Of a DNA stretch of 35,209 bases, positions 479 to 19,764 are shown piece by piece. The stretch is from the NCBI GenBank assembly GCA_937925815.1, contig CALAMQ010000173.1, forward strand, positions 1 to 35,209, in the 5' to 3' direction. A program made the translations under genes and the position numbers. The notes beneath the pieces are model-generated. The model was not told where the DNA came from. It saw nothing but the letters and a program-made list of their open reading frames with translations, and did no database searches. Source of the stretch: an uncultured Granulosicoccaceae bacterium. Lineage in GTDB: Bacteria > Pseudomonadota > Gammaproteobacteria > CALCKW01. The first letter of the stretch is position 1; every line of letters begins with the position of its first letter.

Positions 479-802
479 ATGACCTTTCTAGTGACTGAGA
501 ACTGCATCCGTTGCAAATATCAGGATTGTGTCTCCGTTTGCCCGGTCGATTGCTTCTTTGAAGGCGACACGATGCTGGTCATTGACCCCGACGAGTGCAT
601 CGACTGTGGTGTGTGTGTCCCAGAGTGCCCAGCGGATGCGATCGTTGCCGGGGATGAAGACGAGGACGGCTACTGGCTCGAGGTCAACACGCGCTTTGCG
701 AAAATTTGGCCAAATATCCTCACGCCCGGCGAGGTGCCTGCCGACGCGGACGAGTGGAACGGCAAATTAGGCAAGCGCGAGGTGTTGAACGGACATGGCT
801 GA
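479..802 (+). CDS. 7Fe-8S ferredoxin (FdxA type)
   Basis: A 107-residue low-potential electron carrier. The cysteine pattern matches Azotobacter ferredoxin I: C9, C17 and C50 are placed to bind a [3Fe-4S] cluster and C21, C40, C43 and C46 a [4Fe-4S] cluster, with C12 and C25 as extra cysteines. The C-terminal tail after residue 60 is also typical of the FdxA family. GGAG lies about nine bases before the ATG. The gene opens the operon and overlaps the ferredoxin reductase gene by 8 bases. Because the 6-hydroxynicotinate reductase of this pathway uses reduced ferredoxin, this protein is most simply its dedicated donor. That partnership is inferred from gene order. Confidence 0.9.
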
Positions 803-1625
803 AGCTGCAAGACACCTCGATTCTGAGCTGCTCATATTGGATGACGGGTTGCCAACGCCCGACAACTGTCTGCGCGCGCGCGTCCTGAGCGTCACCCACT
901 ACACTGATAACTTGTTTGAATTTTCGGTTGAGCGAGATCCGGGTTTTCGCTTCCAAGCCGGTGAATTTGCCATGTTGGGCTTGCCGCTTAGCGACACGCC
1001 GTTTCGTGCGTATTCAGTCGCCAGCGCGCCGTGGGAAGACCATCTGACCTTTTACTCAATCAAAGTGCCCGGTGGGCCGCTGACTGAGAAGTTGCAACAC
1101 CTGCAGGCGGGTGACTCGGTGCTACTCCGCCGCAAAACCACTGGCACTTTGGTCTGTGACGCGTTGTTGCCGGGCGAGCGTTTGATCATGCTGTCAACAG
1201 GCACTGGCGTTGCGCCCTTCGCCTCCGTTGCGCTTGACCCAGCAATCTACGACGCCTTTGGATCACTGGCGCTTGTTCAGGGTGTGCGCGTGTCGGCAGA
1301 GTTGCAATTTGCGCGTGCCTTACAACAGCGTATCGAGTCGGATGAGCTGATCCGCGAATTTGCGGCGGACCGCTTCGAACTGCTCACGTGCACCAGCCGC
1401 GAGGCCGGCGCGCGTGAGGGGCGGGTGACGGACTGGCTTTACTCAGGTGAGCTCGCCGCTGCAATGGGTTCCAGCGGGCTCGATCCCGAGACGGACCGCA
1501 TTATGATTTGTGGTTCAATGGCGATGCTCAATGAGCTCAAGTCATATGTAATTGATGCGGGGTTTGTGGAGGGTTCACGCAATCGCCCCGGTACTTTTGC
1601 GGTAGAGCGCGCTTTCGCCGGTTGA
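795..1625 (+). CDS. fpr: Ferredoxin--NADP+ reductase
   Basis: A 276-residue FAD enzyme of the bacterial (subclass I) ferredoxin-NADP+ reductase family. The FAD-binding motif RAYSVAS is near residue 73, the nucleotide-binding motif GTGVAPF near residue 137, and a MICGSMAM segment lies in the C-terminal part. The protein ends FAVERAFAG, like other Fpr proteins that close on an aromatic-x-x-(E/K)-x-AF pattern. It overlaps the ferredoxin gene by 8 bases, so the two are probably translationally coupled. Inferred role: pass electrons from NADPH to the ferredoxin and on to 6-hydroxynicotinate reductase. It could also serve the Rieske oxygenase encoded at 18697, which has no reductase gene beside it. 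Confidence 0.9.
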
Positions 1626-1657: not shown

Positions 1658-2503
1658 ATGGGCTACGTGCTGGTCGCAACCGAAAATGAATTGCAAGACC
1701 GTTTGGCAAACGGTGGGTGCCGAGTGGCTGCGGGCATGACAGACATGTACCCATCTGGACAGCTGCCCGGTTCGACTGAGTCTGTGGTCGATATCAGCCA
1801 GGTGTCGTCGCTTCGTGATATCAGCTGCACGGACGGCGCGTGGCGTATTGGCACCACCGTGCGTTGGTCGGATGTGCGGGTATACCCCTGGCCTGCGGGT
1901 CTTGAGATGTTGGCTGAAGTCGCGAGCCAAGTCGGTGCGGTGCAGGTGCAAAATGCAGCGACCGTGGGCGGGAATTTATGCAATGCATCGCCTGCTGCCG
2001 ATGGGATGCCGGTATTGCTTGCGCTCGGTGCCACCGTTGAATTGTGGTCTGTGCGCGGTGTGCGGGAAATGCTGCTGTCTGATTTCATTACGGGTGTTCG
2101 CCGAACCGCGCTCGAGCCCGGTGAGTACCTTCGCGCGATTTGCTTCAAAAACAACGAAGACGCTGTCGCCAGCGCCTTTTGTAAATTGGGTTTGCGGCAG
2201 TACTTGGTGATTTCAATCGCGATGGCCGCAGGCCAACTTCGCTGTGATTCAGCAGGCTGTGTCAGTGGTATTTCACTGGCGCTCGGCGCGTGCTCACCGG
2301 TTGCCACCCGCTTGTCAGACATTGAAGCATCCATCGTCGGGAAGCCAGTGTCCAAATCCTTGATTGACGAAGTCACAGCGGAGCGCGTTGCCTCGGTGAT
2401 TAGCCCCATCGACGATGTGCGCGCGACAGCCGCATACCGCCGTGATGCGGCAGTGCATGTTCTGCGCGATACCCTCGCGCGTTTAGTGGAGGCGGTGGCA
2501 TGA
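1658..2503 (+). CDS. FAD-binding subunit of a molybdenum hydroxylase (probable nicotinate dehydrogenase)
   Basis: A 281-residue medium subunit of the xanthine dehydrogenase/CoxM family. The two flavin-binding motifs are visible: AAGMTD (residues 24-29) and TVGGNLCNASPAADG (102-116). A C-terminal CO-dehydrogenase flavoprotein-like domain follows. AGGA lies just upstream of the ATG. The gene overlaps the next one by 4 bases (ATGA), so it should form a complex with the fused 2Fe-2S/Mo protein. A FAD subunit implies NAD(P)+ as electron acceptor, unlike the cytochrome-linked NicAB enzyme of Pseudomonas. The family is certain. Nicotinate as substrate rests on the neighbours, which act on 6-hydroxynicotinate. 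Confidence 0.85.
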   Translation: MGYVLVATENELQDRLANGGCRVAAGMTDMYPSGQLPGSTESVVDISQVSSLRDISCTDGAWRIGTTVRWSDVRVYPWPAGLEMLAEVASQVGAVQVQNAATVGGNLCNASPAADGMPVLLALGATVELWSVRGVREMLLSDFITGVRRTALEPGEYLRAICFKNNEDAVASAFCKLGLRQYLVISIAMAAGQLRCDSAGCVSGISLALGACSPVATRLSDIEASIVGKPVSKSLIDEVTAERVASVISPIDDVRATAAYRRDAAVHVLRDTLARLVEAVA

Positions 2504-5253
2504 AAGTATCGCTGACATTGAACGGGCAAGAGACCAGCATCGATGACCTCAGCGGCGCCGAGCGGCTGTCCAGCGTGTTGCGTGAATCTTGTGGCGCACG
2601 CGACGTCAAAGTGGGCTGTGAGGCCGGCGACTGCGGGGCTTGTACCGTGCTGGTCGATGGCGAGGCGATGAACGCGTGTATTGTGCCGGTCGCGCAGGTT
2701 GCCAACCGCCACGTCGAGACGGCAGCCGGTTTGCACCGCAACGGCGACCCAGATGCGGTACGCGTCGCGAGCGCCTTTGACGCCGGTGGCGCAGTGCAAT
2801 GCGGAATCTGTTTCCCCGGATTTCTGACCTCCTTGGTCGCGCTAAAGCGCCAGCAATCCCAACCTACCGAAGCTGAAATCACCGATGCGCTTGGCGGCGT
2901 GTTGTGCCGCTGTTCGGGTTACCGCAAGTTGATCGACGCCGCGGTGTCGGCCTGCGATGGGTCCGTACCGCGTACCGAGTGTGATGCTCTCGCCGGCAGT
3001 GTTGGTGATGCGGTGGCGCGTGTTGACGGCTTGCCGCGAATCACTGGTGACCAAATTTTCGGTGATGACATTGCCCCCGCAGACGCGCTTCGGCTCAGAG
3101 TGCTGCGCTCGCCTCACGCGCGTGCACGCTTCACGATCGGCGACACCCAAAGCTGGGTTTCACATCATCCGGGGGTTGAACTTGTTCTCACGGCGTCTGA
3201 CGTGCCGGGGGTCAATCGTTACGGTGTGTTGCCGGGCTTTGAAGACCAGCCCGTCTTCGCTGAATCTGAAGCGCGTTTCCGGGGTGAAGCGGTCGCAGCT
3301 GTGGTTGGGGAAAAAGCCGTAATTGAGGGTTTAGATCTCAACGACTTCCCGGTGACGTGGGAGCCGCTTGATGCCCTTGTGGACATGCCATCGGCGCGCA
3401 AACCGTCTGCTGATGCCTTGCACGCACACGCAGCAGAGAACATTTTATGCCGTGGTCGGGTCGAGAAGGGCGATGTGACATCAGCATTGGCGAGCGCGGA
3501 GTTTATCAAGCGCGGCACCTTTGAGACCGGGTTTGTTGAGCACGCCTACATCGAGCCTGAAGCGGGCTACGCAAGTTTTGACGGTGAGCGGGTGTCGGTT
3601 TTTGGTTGCACGCAGGCCCCTGTTATGGATCAAGAAGCGCTCGCCGGCATTCTCGATCTGCGTCTCGCGCAGCTGCGCATTGTGCCAACAGCCGTTGGCG
3701 GGGGCTTTGGCTCCAAGCTTGACTTGTCTTTCCAGCCCTTTGTGGCGCTCGCGGCGATGCGACTCAAGCGCGCTGTGCGCATGTGTTACTCGCGGCAGGA
3801 GTCGATGCAGTCTTCGACCAAGCGTCATCCATCTCGGATTGAACTGTCTATTGGCGCAACGCGCGATGGCTACCTCACGGCCTGTGATTTCGACGGCGAG
3901 TTCAACACCGGTGCCTACGCCTCTTGGGGGCCCACTGTGGCCAACCGGGTGCCGGTTCACGCATCCGGCCCCTACGCCTACCCACACTATCGCGCGCGCA
4001 CCACTGGTGTTTACACCAACAACCCGCCAGCCGGTGCTTTCCGCGGCTTCGGTGTGCCGCAGGCGGCCATCGCATTAGAGTTGTTGTTGGATGAAATGGC
4101 AGATGAACTCGGGCTAGATCCGCTGGCTTTTCGTCAGAAGAATGCGTTGCAAAACAATGTGCCAACCGCGACCGGTCAATGCTTTTCACAGGGCGTGGGT
4201 ATCTCGGCGTGTTTTGATGCGCTCGCGCCTCACTGGCAGTCGTTGAATGCAGAGGCTGCGGCCTTCAACAACGAGTCTGCTCCGCGCTACCGACGCGGCG
4301 TGGGTCTGGCCGGTGGGTGGTACGGCTGCGGCAACACCTCGATGCCCAACCCGTCGACGATCAAGTCGGCCCTGCGCGCAGACGGTGGCGTTGTGCTGCA
4401 CCAAGGTGCTGTTGACATTGGACAAGGGTCCAACACAGTGATCGCGCAGATTTTTGCGACGGCCGTGGGCTGTTCACTGCACGCGCTTGAGTTGATCAGC
4501 GCGGACACGGACATCACACCGGATGCCGGCAAGACATCGGCGTCGCGCCAGACCTTCATCAGTGGCAATGCCGCGCGCTTGAGCGGGCTCTCTTTACGTC
4601 GCGAGTTGCTCGCGGCGCTCGGAGCGCCCGATGACGCAGATCTCGTGTTTGACCCCAATCTGACCGGTGCGCGGTTGGGCGACGCCTTTTGGCCATTTGA
4701 TGCCAGCGCCTTGCCGCTCGATAACGCGGGCTATGTCATCTGTGTCGAGGAGAGCTACGACCCGCCAACAGCACCGCTCGACGAAAACGGCCAGGGCGAA
4801 CCCTATGCGCAATTTGGTTATGCGGCGCATCTGGTGATGCTGACGGTGGATACGGCACTAGGCACTGTGGAACTCAATAAGATTGTGGCGGCACACGATG
4901 TCGGCAAGGCGATCAACCCGATTTTGGTTGAAGGCCAAGTGCACGGCGGTGTTGCTCAGGGCGTTGGTATGGCCTTGATGGAAGCCTATGTGCCAGGCCA
5001 GAGTGAAGATCTGCACAACTACCTCATACCAACCATTGGCGACGTTCCGCCAATAGAATCACTGATTGTCGAGGTGCCGGACGCGCACGGCGCGCACGGT
5101 GCCAAGGGCCTGGGTGAGCACGTGTTGATTCCAACTGCGCCTGCCATCCTCAATGGAATTCGACGGGCGACCGGTGCGCGTTTGCGTGCCATCCCCGCCA
5201 CCCCTGATGCCATTCTTACCGCATTGCGCGGTGACGAGCTTGTAGAAGAGTGA
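2500..5253 (+). CDS. Fused [2Fe-2S]/molybdopterin subunit of a molybdenum hydroxylase (probable nicotinate dehydrogenase)
   Basis: This 917-residue protein joins two subunits that are often separate. Residues 1-150 carry the plant-type 2Fe-2S set C40, C45, C48, C60 and the second cluster set C101, C104, C136, C138. From about residue 165 the xanthine dehydrogenase large-subunit domains follow, with the Mo-cofactor motifs GGGFGSK and GAFRGFG. A conserved glutamate near residue 873, in GLGEHVL, fits the catalytic base. Predicted reaction: hydroxylation of nicotinate at C6 with water as oxygen source, electrons passing through the Fe-S clusters to the FAD subunit. No signal peptide is seen, so it is cytoplasmic. 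The substrate is inferred from the adjacent 6-hydroxynicotinate reductase. No XdhC-like maturation factor is present in the window. Confidence 0.85.
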   Translation: MKVSLTLNGQETSIDDLSGAERLSSVLRESCGARDVKVGCEAGDCGACTVLVDGEAMNACIVPVAQVANRHVETAAGLHRNGDPDAVRVASAFDAGGAVQCGICFPGFLTSLVALKRQQSQPTEAEITDALGGVLCRCSGYRKLIDAAVSACDGSVPRTECDALAGSVGDAVARVDGLPRITGDQIFGDDIAPADALRLRVLRSPHARARFTIGDTQSWVSHHPGVELVLTASDVPGVNRYGVLPGFEDQPVFAESEARFRGEAVAAVVGEKAVIEGLDLNDFPVTWEPLDALVDMPSARKPSADALHAHAAENILCRGRVEKGDVTSALASAEFIKRGTFETGFVEHAYIEPEAGYASFDGERVSVFGCTQAPVMDQEALAGILDLRLAQLRIVPTAVGGGFGSKLDLSFQPFVALAAMRLKRAVRMCYSRQESMQSSTKRHPSRIELSIGATRDGYLTACDFDGEFNTGAYASWGPTVANRVPVHASGPYAYPHYRARTTGVYTNNPPAGAFRGFGVPQAAIALELLLDEMADELGLDPLAFRQKNALQNNVPTATGQCFSQGVGISACFDALAPHWQSLNAEAAAFNNESAPRYRRGVGLAGGWYGCGNTSMPNPSTIKSALRADGGVVLHQGAVDIGQGSNTVIAQIFATAVGCSLHALELISADTDITPDAGKTSASRQTFISGNAARLSGLSLRRELLAALGAPDDADLVFDPNLTGARLGDAFWPFDASALPLDNAGYVICVEESYDPPTAPLDENGQGEPYAQFGYAAHLVMLTVDTALGTVELNKIVAAHDVGKAINPILVEGQVHGGVAQGVGMALMEAYVPGQSEDLHNYLIPTIGDVPPIESLIVEVPDAHGAHGAKGLGEHVLIPTAPAILNGIRRATGARLRAIPATPDAILTALRGDELVEE

Positions 5254-5257
5254 TGAT

Positions 5258-6733
5258 ATGACTCGAGTGCCAGTCGAGAAGATTCGTTGCGACGCCTGTC
5301 CTGTGACCTGTTTCATTGCGCCGGGAAAGTCGGGCGCTTGTGATCGCTACGCCAATCACGACGGAGATTTGGTTCGATTGGATTCGCCAACCGTCGTCGA
5401 GCGAGTCGTTGCGCGCGGTGGTAAGCTCGTGCCATTTAGCCCCAGTGGTGAGTGGGACGGCGATGTGGTTCACAGCAATCGGCCATTTTTGACAGCGGTT
5501 GGCACGGGCACAACCTACCCAGACTACAAGCCAGCCCCTTTTATCGTGAGCCAGGATCTCGATGGCGTGGACCTCGTGACTGTGGTCACCGAGGGAATTT
5601 TCAGCTATTGCGGCGTCAAGGTGAAAATTGACACTGACCGGCACCTCGGTCACGAGTGCGCGAGCGTGCGCGCTAACGGTGAGGTGGTAGGTCACGTCAC
5701 CACGACTGAGTACGGCTCAAAGATGCTCTCCCTCGGCGGCGTTGAGCACCTGACGGGTGGCAGTAAGAAAGAGGGGCGTATCACCTGTGAGACCTTGTTG
5801 GCACTGACCAATCGGGAAGCCGTCACGCTGACCATTGACGAGGGCCCGGAAGTGATAGTCCAGGCTGGTCAGCCGCCGGTGATCGATGGCGTGACCGAGG
5901 CACGCATGCGCGTCGGCTGTGGTTCCGCGACTATAGGCATGTTTGCCAAACAGTGGTTTTCGCTGGTGGATGAAGTGGTGGTCGTGGATGACCACATCAC
6001 AGGTGTGTTATCTGAACACGAAGCGGGTAAGGGTCTGGACGTGCCGCCAACCGGCATCCGCATGCGCGGGCGCAAGTCGACCCCGGGCCGCTATTTTCAA
6101 GTTGCCAACCCAGGCACTGGCTGGGGTGGTACGGACATCGAAGACCCCTTGAGTATCATCGAACACTTCAAGCCAGCTGTTGCTTGGCCGGGATTGCGGT
6201 TGTTGATGGTGTCCACAACCGGCGAGCAGTGGGCGTACTTTGAACTCGATGATGACTTACAGCCGCAGCCGGCGGAGATCAGCGAGGCATTGCGTTTAAC
6301 CGTGGATCGCATCGAGGAGAACTGCGAGCCCTCGGTGTGTTCGGTGTTGTTCATGGGTGGTGCGGGTGGCTCATTGCGTGCTGGTGTCACCGAGAACCCT
6401 GTGCGCCTCACACGCTCTGTCAAAGACACGCTGACACACGTGAGTTGTGGCGGCGCTGAGGCCTATGTCTGGCCCGGTGGTGGCATCACTGTGATGGTGG
6501 ATGTGTGTGACATGCCATCCGGCTCTTTTGGCTACGTGCCAACCCCGGCACTGGTCGCGCCGATTGAATTTACCATGCGCCGCGATGACTACGCGGCGCT
6601 CGGCGGTCATGTCGACGAAATCGTGCCACTGCAATCCGTGCTCGATCAACCGCACCGCGCGGTAGACGCTGCCACTGCCCATTGGCCGGTGGATCAAAAC
6701 CACTTTGGTTGGCGCGAGCAAAACGGTGACTAG
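5258..6733 (+). CDS. hnr: 6-hydroxynicotinate reductase
   Basis: A 491-residue protein that I recognise as a homologue of 6-hydroxynicotinate reductase. That enzyme uses reduced ferredoxin to convert 6-hydroxynicotinate to 1,4,5,6-tetrahydro-6-oxonicotinate. The N-terminus has a cysteine set C11-x2-C14-x3-C18-x9-C28 suited to an Fe-S cluster, and further cysteines occur in the middle (SYCG, HEC) and near the end (NCEPSVC, SCGGAEAYVWPGGG). The characterised E. barkeri enzyme holds [2Fe-2S] and [4Fe-4S] clusters and a covalently bound flavin. The gene starts 4 bases after the dehydrogenase stop and overlaps the UPF0280 gene. The enamidase and ferredoxin genes in the same operon support the assignment strongly. 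Confidence 0.85.
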   Translation: MTRVPVEKIRCDACPVTCFIAPGKSGACDRYANHDGDLVRLDSPTVVERVVARGGKLVPFSPSGEWDGDVVHSNRPFLTAVGTGTTYPDYKPAPFIVSQDLDGVDLVTVVTEGIFSYCGVKVKIDTDRHLGHECASVRANGEVVGHVTTTEYGSKMLSLGGVEHLTGGSKKEGRITCETLLALTNREAVTLTIDEGPEVIVQAGQPPVIDGVTEARMRVGCGSATIGMFAKQWFSLVDEVVVVDDHITGVLSEHEAGKGLDVPPTGIRMRGRKSTPGRYFQVANPGTGWGGTDIEDPLSIIEHFKPAVAWPGLRLLMVSTTGEQWAYFELDDDLQPQPAEISEALRLTVDRIEENCEPSVCSVLFMGGAGGSLRAGVTENPVRLTRSVKDTLTHVSCGGAEAYVWPGGGITVMVDVCDMPSGSFGYVPTPALVAPIEFTMRRDDYAALGGHVDEIVPLQSVLDQPHRAVDAATAHWPVDQNHFGWREQNGD

Positions 6734-7616
6734 CCTCGCTGCGCGCTTGCCGCGGCGAGACCGCCCGGACAGTTTGCACCTGCAGCACGGTCCAATCGAT
6801 CTCGTGCTCAGCTACCACGGCGATGCCGCTGCGGTTGATCGCGCCTACGCGATGGCCGCAACCTACTTTGACGGCCTGTTGCAAGCGTTGGTGGACGAAC
6901 TCCCAGCCCTGCGCGCACAGACCCGTGCGGGCAATCAGTTTGCAGGTGCGGTGGCGCAACGCATGCAACGGGCGACAGAATCGGCGTCGCGTGGCACCTT
7001 TGTCACCCCGATGGCTGCAGTCGCGGGATCGGTGGCGGACGCCGTGCTCGAGGCGTCGTGGGTGCCTGGCATTACCCGCGCGAGCGTGAACAATGGTGGC
7101 GATATCGCACTGCGTTTGGCGCCACAAGAACGCTACACACTCAGGGTATGCAGCTTGGACAACCAGCCGCTCGCTGACTTTTCTGTGCATGAGCAAGACG
7201 GTATTGGCGGTGTTGCCACCAGTGGTCGCGGAGGCCGTAGCCTGAGTTGCGGTATCGCTGATTCTGTTACCGTGTTGGCGTCTTGCGCGGCCGAGGCGGA
7301 TGTCGCGGCCACATTGATCGCCAACGCGGTGGACATGCCCGGTTGCGACCGTATAGTACGTGAGCCGGCCAATGCGCTGCAGCCAGACTCCGATCTCGGG
7401 GAGCGCTTGGTCGTGACTCACTGCGGCGACTTGGACGAGCACGAAGTCGCCATGGCCCTAGACAATGGCGCGTGTTGCGCGCGTGAATGGGTCGACCGCG
7501 GCGCAGTTAAAGCCGTCGCGCTATTTCTCAGGGGCGCAACCCGCGTCGTTGGTTGTGAACGCAGCGTTGCCCTAGCGGGAAGCGCCAGTCAGGAGAGACA
7601 ATGCATAACGTTGTAG
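6726..7616 (+). CDS. UPF0280 family protein (ApbE superfamily), candidate flavin transferase
   Basis: A 296-residue protein from a GTG at 6726 that overlaps the reductase stop by 8 bases. A TTG at 6705 would add seven residues. It resembles UPF0280/COG2122, a group distantly related to ApbE FAD:protein FMN transferases. Visible segments are FVTPMAAVAGSVAD (about residues 95-108), NNGGDIALRL (about 121-130) and a late SCGIADSVTV, which correspond to conserved blocks of this superfamily. The function of UPF0280 is not established. The reductase encoded just upstream has covalent flavin in its characterised homologue, so a role in attaching it is plausible. This is inference from position and fold family. 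Confidence 0.75.
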   Translation: MTSLAARLPRRDRPDSLHLQHGPIDLVLSYHGDAAAVDRAYAMAATYFDGLLQALVDELPALRAQTRAGNQFAGAVAQRMQRATESASRGTFVTPMAAVAGSVADAVLEASWVPGITRASVNNGGDIALRLAPQERYTLRVCSLDNQPLADFSVHEQDGIGGVATSGRGGRSLSCGIADSVTVLASCAAEADVAATLIANAVDMPGCDRIVREPANALQPDSDLGERLVVTHCGDLDEHEVAMALDNGACCAREWVDRGAVKAVALFLRGATRVVGCERSVALAGSASQERQCITL

Positions 7617-8182
7617 TTCGACGTCAATTTGAATTCGTCGAAGAGATTTTTCATGAGGGTGGACCAAGGCCCGATGCGCCGCTGCGCAAAGCCGCGACGG
7701 TTGCAGTCATTCACAACCCCTTTGCCGGCAGTTACCACGAGGACATCAGTCCGTTCATGGAGGCATTGAAGCCCATTGGGCTTCAACTGGCGCGCGCCAC
7801 AGCTGAGGCTCTTGGCGGTGTCGAACGTGTGCAAGGTTATGGCAAGGGTGCCTTGGTAGGTTGCTCTGGCGAGCTTGAACACGGTGCCCTGTGGCACGTG
7901 CCCGGCGGCTATGCCATGCGTGAGATCCTTGGTGACGCACTTGCCATTGTGCCTTCGACTAAGAAAGTGTGCGCGCCCGGTGGATCGTTGGATATTCCCT
8001 TGACCCACGTCAACGCTTCCTATGTGCGCAGCCACTTCGATGCAATGGAAATTTGCCACAGTGACATGCCGCGTCACGATGAGATAGCCGTCGTCCTCGT
8101 CATGAGCGACGGCGCCCGAATTCACAACCGAGTCGGTGGCCTCGCCGCCGATGAAATCAGCGCAATGGACGGATTGAGATGA
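7601..8182 (+). CDS. DUF1185 / 'amino acid synthesis' family protein, copy 1
   Basis: A 193-residue protein of the AA_synth (DUF1185) family, whose reaction is not known to me. Conserved blocks are HNPFAGSYHED, YGKGALVG followed by GELEH, VPSTKK, SLDIPLTHVNASYVRSHFD and a C-terminal RVGGL...DGLR. It has no signal peptide or membrane segment, so it is probably cytoplasmic. It overlaps the UPF0280 gene by 16 bases, has its own AGGAGAG upstream of the ATG, and overlaps the second copy by 4 bases. The two copies share all these blocks but differ widely elsewhere, which suggests two distinct subunits or two successive reactions. Its operon place suggests a role in nicotinate breakdown, perhaps after enamidase. 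Confidence 0.8.
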   Translation: MHNVVVRRQFEFVEEIFHEGGPRPDAPLRKAATVAVIHNPFAGSYHEDISPFMEALKPIGLQLARATAEALGGVERVQGYGKGALVGCSGELEHGALWHVPGGYAMREILGDALAIVPSTKKVCAPGGSLDIPLTHVNASYVRSHFDAMEICHSDMPRHDEIAVVLVMSDGARIHNRVGGLAADEISAMDGLR

Positions 8183-8763
8183 AAGCGGACATTCGAAAAA
8201 TACTGGTCAATGTCGAGATTACTGAACGCGAAATGGGCCGGGAGATTTCACCGCCAACGCGCAAGGCGGTCGCCGCTGCTGTGATCGAGAACCCCTTTGC
8301 CGGGCGGTATGAGGAAGACCTGACACCGCTGATGGAGATCGGTGCTGAACTCGGCGCGCTGCTCGGTAAGCGCTGCGTGCAGGCACTTGGTATTGCGCCC
8401 GAGCAGGCCGAAAGCTATGGCAAGTCAGCCATGGTTGGCGAAAACGGCGAGCTCGAGCACGCGGCTGCCATTCTTCACCCTAAACTCGGCGCACCGCTGC
8501 GCGCTGAAGTTGAGAAGGGTGCGGCATTGGTGCCGTCGTCTAAAAAAATGGGCGGGCCGGGTCAGGTGCTCGATGTACCACTTGGTCATAAAGACGCAGC
8601 CTATGTTCGCAGTCATTTTGATGGCATTGAAGTGCGGTGCAGCGATGCGCCACGCGCCAACGAAATTTTGGTTGCAGTATCCGTGACCGACAGCGGGCGT
8701 CCCCTGCCACGCGTTGGCGGCCTGGAAGCCGCCGATGCAAAAGGCGAAGACGGCTTGCGCTGA
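8179..8763 (+). CDS. DUF1185 / 'amino acid synthesis' family protein, copy 2
   Basis: A 194-residue paralogue of the preceding protein, coupled to it through an ATGA overlap. It shares NPFAGRYEED, YGKSAMVG, GELEH, VPSSKK, LDVPLGHKDAAYVRSHFD, DAPRANEI and the ending DGLR. Conserved Lys, His, Asp and Glu residues in these blocks could form an active site, but no catalytic assignment is known to me. It is followed after 20 bases by the nicotinamidase gene. The tandem arrangement with strong divergence outside the motifs argues for an old duplication with separate roles or a heteromer rather than a recent copy. Confidence 0.8.
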   Translation: MKADIRKILVNVEITEREMGREISPPTRKAVAAAVIENPFAGRYEEDLTPLMEIGAELGALLGKRCVQALGIAPEQAESYGKSAMVGENGELEHAAAILHPKLGAPLRAEVEKGAALVPSSKKMGGPGQVLDVPLGHKDAAYVRSHFDGIEVRCSDAPRANEILVAVSVTDSGRPLPRVGGLEAADAKGEDGLR

Positions 8764-8783
8764 GGCCCACACGAGGAACAGTC

Positions 8784-9386
8784 ATGAACTCAGATCACGC
8801 ATTACTCATCATCGACGTTCAAAATGATTTCTGTCCAGGCGGCGCCTTGGCCGTGGAGCAGGGAGATCAGATTGTCGACAGCATCAACGCGATGCAATCG
8901 CAGTATTCCTGCGTTATCGCAACGCAAGATTGGCACCCCCAAGGGCACAGCTCCTTCGCCAGCACTCACAATGCTGAGCCGTTCTCAATGAAGCAGATGC
9001 CTTATGGTGAACAAGTGTTGTGGCCCGACCACTGCGTGATCGGAAGTGAAGGTGCTGCTTTTCACGCTCGGCTGCAAACCGAACGCGTCAACGCGGTGAT
9101 CCGAAAAGGCAGTAACCCGGCCATCGACAGTTATTCTGCGTTCTTCGAAAATGACCGCACAACCCCAACCGGTTTGCATGGGCTTCTGTCAGAGCTTGGG
9201 GTCAAGGACATCACGCTGGTGGGGCTTGCGACGGATTTCTGCGTCGCCTATTCGGCACTCGATGCCGCCCGACTCGGCTATGGCGTCACCGTGGATACGG
9301 CGGCGTGCCGCGCGATAGACATGAATGGCGAAACCCTTGCTGCGGCGATCACCGAGATGCGCGCTGCCGGCATCAACGTTCAGTAA
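8784..9386 (+). CDS. pncA: Nicotinamidase (PncA-type, isochorismatase fold)
   Basis: A 200-residue enzyme predicted to hydrolyse nicotinamide to nicotinate and ammonia. The catalytic triad of the family is present: D11 in IIDVQNDF, K108 in IRKGSNP and C153 in GLATDFCV. Metal ligands D49, H51 and H55 lie in DWHPQGH, with H83 in WPDHC. These motifs fit PncA better than maleamate or isochorismate hydrolases. I chose the ATG at 8784 because GAGGA precedes it at 8772-8776 and the catalytic Asp then sits at its usual place. Within this operon it would widen the substrate range from nicotinate to nicotinamide, although it could also serve NAD salvage. Confidence 0.9.
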   Translation: MNSDHALLIIDVQNDFCPGGALAVEQGDQIVDSINAMQSQYSCVIATQDWHPQGHSSFASTHNAEPFSMKQMPYGEQVLWPDHCVIGSEGAAFHARLQTERVNAVIRKGSNPAIDSYSAFFENDRTTPTGLHGLLSELGVKDITLVGLATDFCVAYSALDAARLGYGVTVDTAACRAIDMNGETLAAAITEMRAAGINVQ

Positions 9387-9397
9387 GGAGACTGCAC

Positions 9398-10564
9398 ATG
9401 AGCAAATTGGTTGTCAGGAACATCGACTTGATGCTGACGGGCAAGCTTGAAGCGCCGATCGACGACGCTGACTGCCTGATTGCGGTCAATGGCATCATCG
9501 AAGAGATTGGCAAAGAAGCCAACCTCGACACCAGTGGCGCTGATACAGTTGTCGATGCCAAAGGCACGGCTGTGTGCCCGGGACTGATTGACAGTCACAT
9601 TCACCCGGTGATCGGTGACTACACACCGCGCCAGAATCAATTGAACTGGATTGACTCCACGCTCAACGGCGGTGTCACCACCATGATCTCGGCGGGTGAA
9701 GTGCACATGCCCGGCCGGCCCAAAGACATCGTTGGCCTCAAAGCCATGGCCATCGCGTCTCAGCGCTGGTACGAAAACTTCCGACCCTCTGGCGTCAAAG
9801 TGCACGCCGGTGCGCCTGTAATCGAGCAGGGCATGGAAGAGCACGATTTCAAAGAAATGGCCGATGCAGGCGTCAAGCTGCTCGGCGAGATCGGGCTTGG
9901 CTCGGTCAAGGACGGGCCAACCGCCAAGAAAATGGTGGACTGGGCGCGCAAGTACGGCATGCAGAGCACCATCCACACCGGTGGTCCCTCGATCCCAGGT
10001 TCCGGCCTGATCGACAAAGACATCGTGCTCGAGGCGGGCACTGATGTCATTGGTCACATCAACGGCGGGCACTCGGCGTTGCCGGATGACCAGATCATCT
10101 GCCTGTGCGAGAGCTGTCTTGCGGGTATTGAGATCGTTCACAACGGCAACGAGCGCGCAGGCATTTTGACCGTCAACACCGCGCGTGAACTCGATCAGCT
10201 TGACCGCGTGATTCTCGGAACAGACGGCCCGGCCGGTTCCGGCGTGCAGCCACTTGGCATATTGCGCATGGTGGCGTTGCTCTCGAGTCTCGCCAATGTC
10301 AAAGCTGAGATTGCGTTCTGCTTTGCCACGGGGAATACCGCCCGTGTGCGTGAGCTCGACTGCGGCATCATCGAGCCCGGTCGCGTTGCCGATCTCGTGA
10401 TCATGGACCAAGCACAGCATTCCCCAGGCAAGAACCTGCTCGAGTCGGTCGAGCAGGGCAATCTGCCTGGCATTGGCATGGTAATCATCGACGGAGAAGT
10501 GCGCTGTCACCGCAGTCGCAACACACCGCCTGCTGGCCGTTTGCCGGAAGTGGTTGGAGCCTGA
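9398..10564 (+). CDS. ena: Enamidase (amidohydrolase; 1,4,5,6-tetrahydro-6-oxonicotinate hydrolase)
   Basis: A 388-residue amidohydrolase closely resembling enamidase of Eubacterium barkeri. That enzyme hydrolyses 1,4,5,6-tetrahydro-6-oxonicotinate to 2-formylglutarate and ammonia with a bimetal Fe/Zn centre. Predicted metal ligands are H67 and H69 in DSHIHP, a bridging E164 in GEIGLG, H193 in TIHTGG, H220 in GHINGG and D276 in GTDGP. Segments near YTPRQ, GGVTTMISAG, MPGRPKD and the C-terminal SRNTPPA are family-specific. The start at 9398 follows TAAGGAG. It is the last gene of the operon, and no gene for reduction of 2-formylglutarate follows. After it come 98 bases before the convergent gene at 10663. 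Confidence 0.9.
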   Translation: MSKLVVRNIDLMLTGKLEAPIDDADCLIAVNGIIEEIGKEANLDTSGADTVVDAKGTAVCPGLIDSHIHPVIGDYTPRQNQLNWIDSTLNGGVTTMISAGEVHMPGRPKDIVGLKAMAIASQRWYENFRPSGVKVHAGAPVIEQGMEEHDFKEMADAGVKLLGEIGLGSVKDGPTAKKMVDWARKYGMQSTIHTGGPSIPGSGLIDKDIVLEAGTDVIGHINGGHSALPDDQIICLCESCLAGIEIVHNGNERAGILTVNTARELDQLDRVILGTDGPAGSGVQPLGILRMVALLSSLANVKAEIAFCFATGNTARVRELDCGIIEPGRVADLVIMDQAQHSPGKNLLESVEQGNLPGIGMVIIDGEVRCHRSRNTPPAGRLPEVVGA

Positions 10565-18696: not shown

Positions 18697-19764
18697 ATGG
18701 AATTTGTCGAAAACGCGTGGTACGTGGCGGGTTGGTCGTCGGAGTTCGACGATGAGCTCAGACGCGTCACTGTGCTTGATCGGCATGTGCTCATGTACCG
18801 CTGCAGCGACGGCACCGTCGCGGCACTTGAGGACCGTTGCCCCCACCGCCACTTGCCCCTGTCCCACGGCAAACGCATCGGCGACGATGTGCAGTGCGGC
18901 TACCACGGCATGACCTTCGACTGCTCTGGCCAGTGTGTGCGCATACCCGGCCAGGACAACGTGCCACGGGCCGCTTACGTTGAGCGCTTCCCCGTCTGTG
19001 AGCAGCACGACATCGTCTGGATTTGGATGGGTAATCCGGACTTGGCTGTATCGACTCCGGTGTTCGACTTGCCTGAATTCTCTGACCCGTCTTGGCACGC
19101 CCACCAAGGCGAAGCGCTGCATCTCAAATCCCATTACATCAACGTCGCTGAGAATCTAGTGGACCCTGCACACGTGAGCTTCGTGCACCCAACCACCCTT
19201 GGCAACGCCGCGAGCGAAAACGTGCCGGTGCACGTGAGCACCGGCGGCGACCCGATTGTCGCGTGGCGCTGGATACGTGACGCAGAGCCAATCGGGTTTT
19301 TCAAAAACGTTGGCGGCTTCAGCGCTAACGTCGACCGCTGGCACTACTACTACCTCCACCTGCCGTGCACTGCGGTCATCGACTTTGGCAGTGCAGACGC
19401 AGCGTTGTCGCTTGCAGAGGATGAGCGCGACAAAGGCGTGCGCATTCTCGCCTTGCATTTTATAACGCCTGTCAGCGAGCAATATTCCATTGACCGGTGG
19501 ATGCATTTACGCAATACCGCACTCGATGATGACGAGGTGTCCGCGTCGATGGACGCGATGTTCAAAGTGGCCTTTGCAGAAGACAAGGCCATTCTCGAAG
19601 CCATACAAGAAGAAGAAAACCGCCCCTCTCGCAGGCGCCCCATTCGCCTCGCGATCGACAAAGGGTCAACCGTTTACCGCAAGCGTATTAGAGACTTGGT
19701 TGAAGCCGAGCGGATTGAGAGCATGGGCGAGCCCGTGGCGCCGTCTTACGTGCACCATGACTGA
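18697..19764 (+). CDS. Rieske non-haem iron oxygenase, VanA-like
   Basis: A 355-residue oxygenase alpha subunit. The Rieske [2Fe-2S] ligands are C48 and H50 in CPH and C67 and H70 in CGYH. The mononuclear iron ligands are H159 and H164 in NLVDPAHVSFVH. The length and the N-terminal MEFVENAWYVAGW fit the vanillate O-demethylase/phenoxybenzoate oxygenase group, which act on single-ring aromatic acids. No reductase gene is adjacent, although such enzymes need one. The ferredoxin and ferredoxin reductase at 479-1625 or a distant VanB could serve. An ABC importer gene set follows after 82 bases. The substrate is unknown: a methoxylated or hydroxylated aromatic acid, possibly a pyridine, is likely. 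Confidence 0.85.
   Translation: MEFVENAWYVAGWSSEFDDELRRVTVLDRHVLMYRCSDGTVAALEDRCPHRHLPLSHGKRIGDDVQCGYHGMTFDCSGQCVRIPGQDNVPRAAYVERFPVCEQHDIVWIWMGNPDLAVSTPVFDLPEFSDPSWHAHQGEALHLKSHYINVAENLVDPAHVSFVHPTTLGNAASENVPVHVSTGGDPIVAWRWIRDAEPIGFFKNVGGFSANVDRWHYYYLHLPCTAVIDFGSADAALSLAEDERDKGVRILALHFITPVSEQYSIDRWMHLRNTALDDDEVSASMDAMFKVAFAEDKAILEAIQEEENRPSRRRPIRLAIDKGSTVYRKRIRDLVEAERIESMGEPVAPSYVHHD

Follow-up and report, generated by a model that had tools for sequence, protein, structure and literature searches.

UPF0280 accompanies 6-hydroxynicotinate reductase in three bacterial phyla and is a candidate maturation factor of this enzyme

A UPF0280 protein with an ApbE-like fold is encoded directly after hnr, the gene of 6-hydroxynicotinate reductase (Hnr), and a partnership between the two proteins is close to certain. 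Because UPF0280 is present in essentially every sampled genome with Hnr, in three phyla, it is very probably the dedicated helper of Hnr. That this help consists in maturation of Hnr in the cytosol, most likely by covalent transfer of a flavin, is a plausible reading for which we hold the chances to be about even. An ApbE-fold partner that has no catalytic His and tracks a cytosolic Fe-S reductase through three phyla would represent a second maturation route. With Hnr, one branch of the UPF0280 family gains a concrete partner, and a question of niacin breakdown, perhaps also one of homocysteine synthesis in anaerobes, becomes approachable by way of two genes. The literature that we searched for a link between UPF0280 and Hnr yielded no paper.

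The nicotinate operon and its UPF0280 gene

The + strand of the window (the whole stretch of 35,209 nt that was analysed) carries a nicotinate-catabolism operon of ten genes, which extends from the gene of the ferredoxin FdxA (479) to that of an amidohydrolase (10564; Table 1). The hnr gene encodes 491 aa and ends with a TAG codon at 6731-6733, while the UPF0280 reading frame of 296 aa starts with GTG at 6726, the other possible start being TTG at 6705, and has its stop codon at 7614-7616. The overlap of the UPF0280 gene with the end of the reductase gene, which had been claimed in an earlier note on this DNA, is borne out and amounts to 8 nt (6726-6733). The following AA_synth gene (7601) in turn shares 16 nt with UPF0280, so that the genes have the tight packing of an operon, and since UPF0280 is kept beside hnr in three phyla, it is no chance reading frame. 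AA_synth genes (PF06684) follow UPF0280 in one or two copies in most clusters of Pseudomonadota and Bacillota and in none of those of Synergistota; AA_synth was rejected as the true partner of UPF0280 because of this absence from the Synergistota clusters.

Table 1. Genes of the nicotinate operon in the window
Feature	Coordinates	Strand	Evidence
FdxA ferredoxin, probable electron carrier	479..802	+	NF045490, 150.3 bits (cut-off 135)
Ferredoxin-NADP(+) reductase-like protein	795..1625	+	best NCBIfam NF008178, under its cut-off; Pfam NAD_binding_1
Nicotinate dehydrogenase, FAD subunit	1658..2503	+	PF00941, PF03450
Nicotinate dehydrogenase, [2Fe-2S] and molybdopterin domains fused	2500..5253	+	Fer2_2, MoCoBD_1, MoCoBD_2
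hnr, 6-hydroxynicotinate reductase orthologue	5258..6733	+	tblastn relatives so annotated; conservation
UPF0280 (NF003322 clade), ApbE-fold protein, candidate flavin transferase and proposed maturation factor of Hnr	6726..7616	+	NF003322, 2o34, AlphaFold2 and Foldseek
AA_synth protein 1	7601..8182	+	PF06684, 220.6 bits; frequent, non-universal neighbour
AA_synth protein 2	8179..8763	+	PF06684, 244.7 bits
Nicotinamidase	8781..9386	+	NF008623, 235.5 bits (cut-off 174)
Enamidase-type amidohydrolase	9398..10564	+	PF01979; orthologue in E. barkeri-type clusters

The identity of Hnr follows from its sequence kinship to annotated 6-hydroxynicotinate reductases together with the nicotinate genes around it, and comparison with the reductase of Eubacterium barkeri and with the nicotinate clusters of Azorhizobium/Bradyrhizobiaceae (PMC3511419) points to the same enzyme in the same pathway. 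The Hnr of the window has no N-terminal dicluster ferredoxin domain, which the forms from Synergistota and most of those from Bacillota possess, and a separate ferredoxin gene is present in its operon. At its N-terminus lies a Cys4 motif (C11-x2-C14-x3-C18 and C28), and C221 and C356 are invariant. The stretch with this motif (C..CPV.C.I..G..GAC.R..N; window 5285-5360, about residues 10-34 of Hnr) has weak matches in about 70 Bacillota genomes (E 1e-6 to 1e-3), mostly in reading frames of about 300-380 aa, which we take to be possibly radical SAM proteins of the AmmeMemoRadiSam type. Further along the window, a Rieske-type oxygenase is encoded at 18697-19764; relatives of it also occur near the Hnr clusters of loci L120 and L140, so that it may share their neighbourhood.

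Co-occurrence of UPF0280 and Hnr

Co-occurrence across genomes, which the earlier note had proposed as a check, is near-perfect in the three phyla, at 33/33, 11/11 and 8/8 in genome counts that ignore relatedness. Among 399 Pseudomonadota genomes (at genus level, Hnr occurs in 16 of 213 genera), the 33 with Hnr are identical to those with an NF003322 match over the cut-off, two more genomes having short sub-threshold matches. The same identity holds for the 11 genomes with full Hnr among 151 from Synergistota and for the 8 among 250 from Bacillota, where matches of >250 bits were counted as Hnr and those of at least 208 bits as Hnr-type UPF0280; the phylum names of these two samples are those of the loci used as sample centres. 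About 80 other Bacillota genomes harbor a clearly different UPF0280, scoring at most 83 bits. Genomes with only one of Hnr and Hnr-type UPF0280 were found in none of the three even samples. An independent scan for a conserved stretch of Hnr, made with an AT-biased DNA pattern whose chance matches opened the way into the Bacillota, returned 44 Hnr loci, and UPF0280 is present in all 44 genomes (in the same stretch in 33, by search of the whole genome in the other 11). UPF0280 is also present on each of the 26 plasmids that have Hnr and, beyond these, on one plasmid that has no Hnr.

Physical linkage is not the sole reason for this co-occurrence. In G051, a genome of the same genus as the window (loci L080 and L065), the nicotinate cluster comprises the dehydrogenase, UPF0280 and two AA_synth genes, with hnr missing, and an Hnr paralogue of 62% identity is encoded on another contig. 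In Cypionkella (L155), AA_synth directly follows hnr, and UPF0280 lies on another contig. Two copies each of Hnr and UPF0280 are encoded in G932, a Bacillota genome, and in both trees one pair groups with the Synergistota pair and the other with the same Bacillota pair. The neighbors of the G051 paralogue are an aldehyde:ferredoxin oxidoreductase-like gene, an amidase and a PotABCD-like transporter.

Fold and active-site residues of UPF0280

Against NF003322, a UPF0280 subfamily with a cut-off of 290 bits, the protein scores 327.6 bits and hence is a member. Its AlphaFold2 model (pLDDT 90.9) confidently matched, by Foldseek against the PDB, 2o34 (DVU1097, a UPF0280 protein itself) and then only structures of ApbE, FmnB and Ftp, with a probability of about 1.0, E 7e-5 to 1e-3 and TM 0.4-0.5 for the ApbE T-fold structures 6nxi, 5mgy, 4xgx and 4ifu. 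Profile-profile comparison with ApbE gave 95.5%, and 96.5% (E 8.4e-10) with sequences from the three phyla, whereas the gathering score of the Pfam family ApbE (PF02424) is missed (14.1 vs. 25.6 bits, E 0.035). UPF0280 shares with ApbE, Ftp and FmnB (PF02424) the T-fold, the GG-D/E motif, the [AS]TSG loop and metal site 1 (D-x-x-x-T), but differs from them in having no signal peptide, no His loop and no recognisable isoalloxazine region, and in the exchange of the second metal Glu for Ala.

Residues N122, D126, S166, R171, D192, T196 and N200 are invariant in UPF0280. D192 and T196 align with the ligands of metal site 1 in E. coli ApbE, D280 and T284 (PMC4767422), and S166 in the ATSG loop is by alignment the active-site Ser (Ser241 in V. 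cholerae), all three being invariant in the 43 tabulated sequences; R171 lies one residue off the position of the phosphate-binding R240. In place of the second metal ligand (E. coli E169), the alignment of the same 43 sequences has an invariant A100. The N-terminal half of UPF0280 gave no confident alignment with the N-terminal region of ApbE that contacts the isoalloxazine (around E. coli Y60), and in the alignment with ApbE the loop of the general base (V. cholerae His257), about 18 residues, is deleted. His257 is the general base of V. cholerae ApbE, and its exchange in H257G is described as lowering flavin transferase activity, abolition not being stated (PMC12052999); the missing His thus weakens the case for transfer by UPF0280 without excluding it. 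The relationship to ApbE that the earlier note had asserted therefore stands with regard to the fold, metal site 1 and the active-site Ser, but not with regard to the second metal ligand and the loop of the general base. A lack of all flavin- and Mg2+-binding residues, by which the same note would have regarded its proposal of a flavin transferase as refuted, is not what we see, as metal site 1 is kept within an ApbE fold.

Candidates for flavin transfer in Hnr genomes

A covalent flavin is attached either by the flavoprotein itself or, in the case of an FMN phosphoester, by ApbE. The genome of the window encodes one canonical ApbE only, the N-terminus of which reads as a lipoprotein signal (LLTAC), so that this enzyme is probably periplasmic; Hnr reads as cytosolic from its sequence, and neither Hnr nor UPF0280 has an evident signal peptide. 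A canonical ApbE is lacking in 13 of the 33 Pseudomonadota genomes with Hnr, one of which (G420) has UPF0280 itself as its sole weak match. Hence, if Hnr needs an enzyme of the ApbE type, UPF0280 is the only candidate there.

The Hnr of E. barkeri, the only one for which this is known, reportedly contains a covalently bound flavin. Of the single mechanisms for UPF0280, we rate flavin transfer highest because the fold, the metal site and the known covalent flavin of the partner agree. With FAD and Mg2+ bound in the ApbE-like fold, UPF0280 would transfer a flavin phosphate group (FMN) to a hydroxyl or another side chain of Hnr, which would thereby acquire the covalent flavin of its E. barkeri counterpart; both the nature of the transferred group, a flavin, and its destination we infer. 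Given that both the general-base His and the target motif of ApbE are absent, attachment would take place at an unrecognised site of Hnr, with the base supplied elsewhere, for instance by Hnr itself.

In contrast to the targets of ApbE, Hnr has no flavinylation motif: D-x-x-[ST]-G-A-[ST] was found in none of the 34 Hnr proteins examined. The nearest sequence, GCGSAT, was rejected as a disguised motif because its acceptor position varies (T, V, A or C); its Ser is replaced by Gly in Synergistota. Possible flavin carriers, conserved to at least 96% over the three phyla, include T108, T111, S116, S154, T275, T292, T320, T321, S372, H246, C221 and C356, none of which was singled out. No relative of Hnr was found in the PDB by sequence or fold, and its model is of moderate confidence (pLDDT 75). 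The missing His, the missing motif and the unrecognised flavin site leave real doubt on flavin transfer.

This doubt leaves room for the possible, if rather doubtful, reading that UPF0280 matures Hnr by another Mg2+-dependent group transfer (e.g., nucleotidyl or phosphoryl) or by installing a cofactor (e.g., an Fe-S cluster), and that the covalent flavin forms independently. Such a role accounts equally well for the partnership, it agrees with the retention of the metal and TSG/Arg residues rather than of flavin contacts, and UPF0280 proteins also serve the unrelated HcyBio and NIL-ferredoxin, the visible common trait of the partners being Fe-S redox chemistry. However, a special covalent modification is known to be required by one of the partners only, by Hnr, where it is a flavin, and we know of no characterised enzyme of the ApbE fold that performs a transfer of this other kind.

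It is unlikely that the flavin of Hnr attaches itself by an 8-alpha or C6 linkage, with UPF0280 acting as a flavin-handling helper such as an FMN-supplying FAD pyrophosphatase or a chaperone. Ring-linked flavins are self-catalysed as a rule (PMC12052999), the invariant C221, C356, H246 and Tyr of Hnr could form such links, and Ftp of T. pallidum, a relative of ApbE, hydrolyses FAD (PMC4767422), but a general supplier of flavin would not be expected to track Hnr so exactly in three phyla.

Relation to homocysteine-type UPF0280 proteins

UPF0280 is not the wholly uncharacterised family that the earlier note took it to be, since Desulfovibrio needs the protein (COG2122), on genetic evidence, to synthesise homocysteine, and its mutant profile there matches that of the DUF39 protein (r = 0.98; PMC5764234). 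Its homology to ApbE stops short of the flavin-binding region of the latter, and a persulfide role has been proposed for it (reported in PMC5764234); no report of a covalent flavin in homocysteine synthesis was found (PMC5764234). The Hnr type and the homocysteine type (DVU1097/2o34, DvMF_0044, MA1715) belong to the same family (profile 99.8%, E 3.5e-30), and both neighbor an Fe-S redox system, which for the homocysteine type consists of HcyBio and NIL-ferredoxin in Bacillota, where loci with the operon HcyBio, NIL-ferredoxin, UPF0280 occur. In the tree, however, the Hnr type forms a separate clade (support 100/100), and it is distinguished by NNGGD, ATSG and R171, where the homocysteine type has ENGGD, TSSG and Pro/His, as well as by an extra C-terminal extension of about 65-80 aa. 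The UPF0280 protein of the window falls in the Hnr clade, and its neighbors are Hnr and nicotinate genes, not HcyBio and NIL-ferredoxin. Kinship between HcyBio and Hnr as a shared target was discarded, as there is none in sequence (probability 0.1%).

MA1715/COG2122 has been proposed to traffic sulfur in Methanosarcina (PMC5764234, PMC12068725), a precedent for sulfur delivery to Hnr by UPF0280. We consider this very unlikely, since the Hnr-linked proteins, in their separate clade, have no conserved Cys, no column exceeding 30% Cys in 52 Hnr-type sequences.

Flavin transfer, preferred for the Hnr type, may tentatively be extended to the family as a whole. Beside ApbE, the family could constitute a second branch of flavin transferases with this fold, one that works in the cytosol without the His of ApbE, uses another attachment site and provides ferredoxin-dependent reductases with a covalent flavin (Hnr in one clade and, in the other, the homocysteine synthase formed by HcyBio/NIL-ferredoxin). 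The basis for this extension is that an organic substrate is reduced by Fe-S proteins in both cases, these being the partner itself or proteins with which it works; if true, the extension would explain both the covalent flavin of Hnr and the requirement for COG2122 in homocysteine synthesis.

Variety of clusters with Hnr and UPF0280

At several Bacillota loci, UPF0280 directly follows hnr and stands beside genes of the dimethylmalate dehydratase type and the methylitaconate isomerase type, a lyase and an enamidase. This gene set is that of nicotinate fermentation in E. barkeri, the class with the covalent flavin; the clusters were seen in Bacillota other than E. barkeri. In Synergistota (L200 and L202-L206) and at L247 of G932, the cluster around the pair differs and includes a molybdenum hydroxylase as well as an OYE-family reductase, to which L200 adds methylaspartate ammonia-lyase, fumarase, an amidohydrolase and a DctM/NMT1-like transporter; the breakdown of another N-heterocycle is perhaps encoded here. 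On the Pleomorphomonas plasmid pSM30-1 (L064), Hnr, UPF0280 and AA_synth lie beside genes annotated as acetophenone carboxylase subunits, and nicotinate dehydrogenase is not nearby.

That UPF0280 takes part in the nicotinate pathway itself, as an enzyme or a subunit, and merely stands beside hnr would suit the operon of the window and G051, where it follows the dehydrogenase without hnr, but is barely credible for a protein that accompanies Hnr even at unlinked positions and tracks it into clusters with other genes, such as those for methylaspartate ammonia-lyase and fumarase in Synergistota or the acetophenone carboxylase-like ones in Pleomorphomonas.

On a plasmid of Hydrogenophaga BPS33 (L063), which carries no Hnr, copies of UPF0280 recur at four places, together with IS1071 and a Rieske protein. 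Three UPF0280 matches, L074 (G646), L166 (G669) and L233 (G1022), have one in-frame stop near or inside the match, which may reflect a sequencing error, a decayed copy or a gene border.
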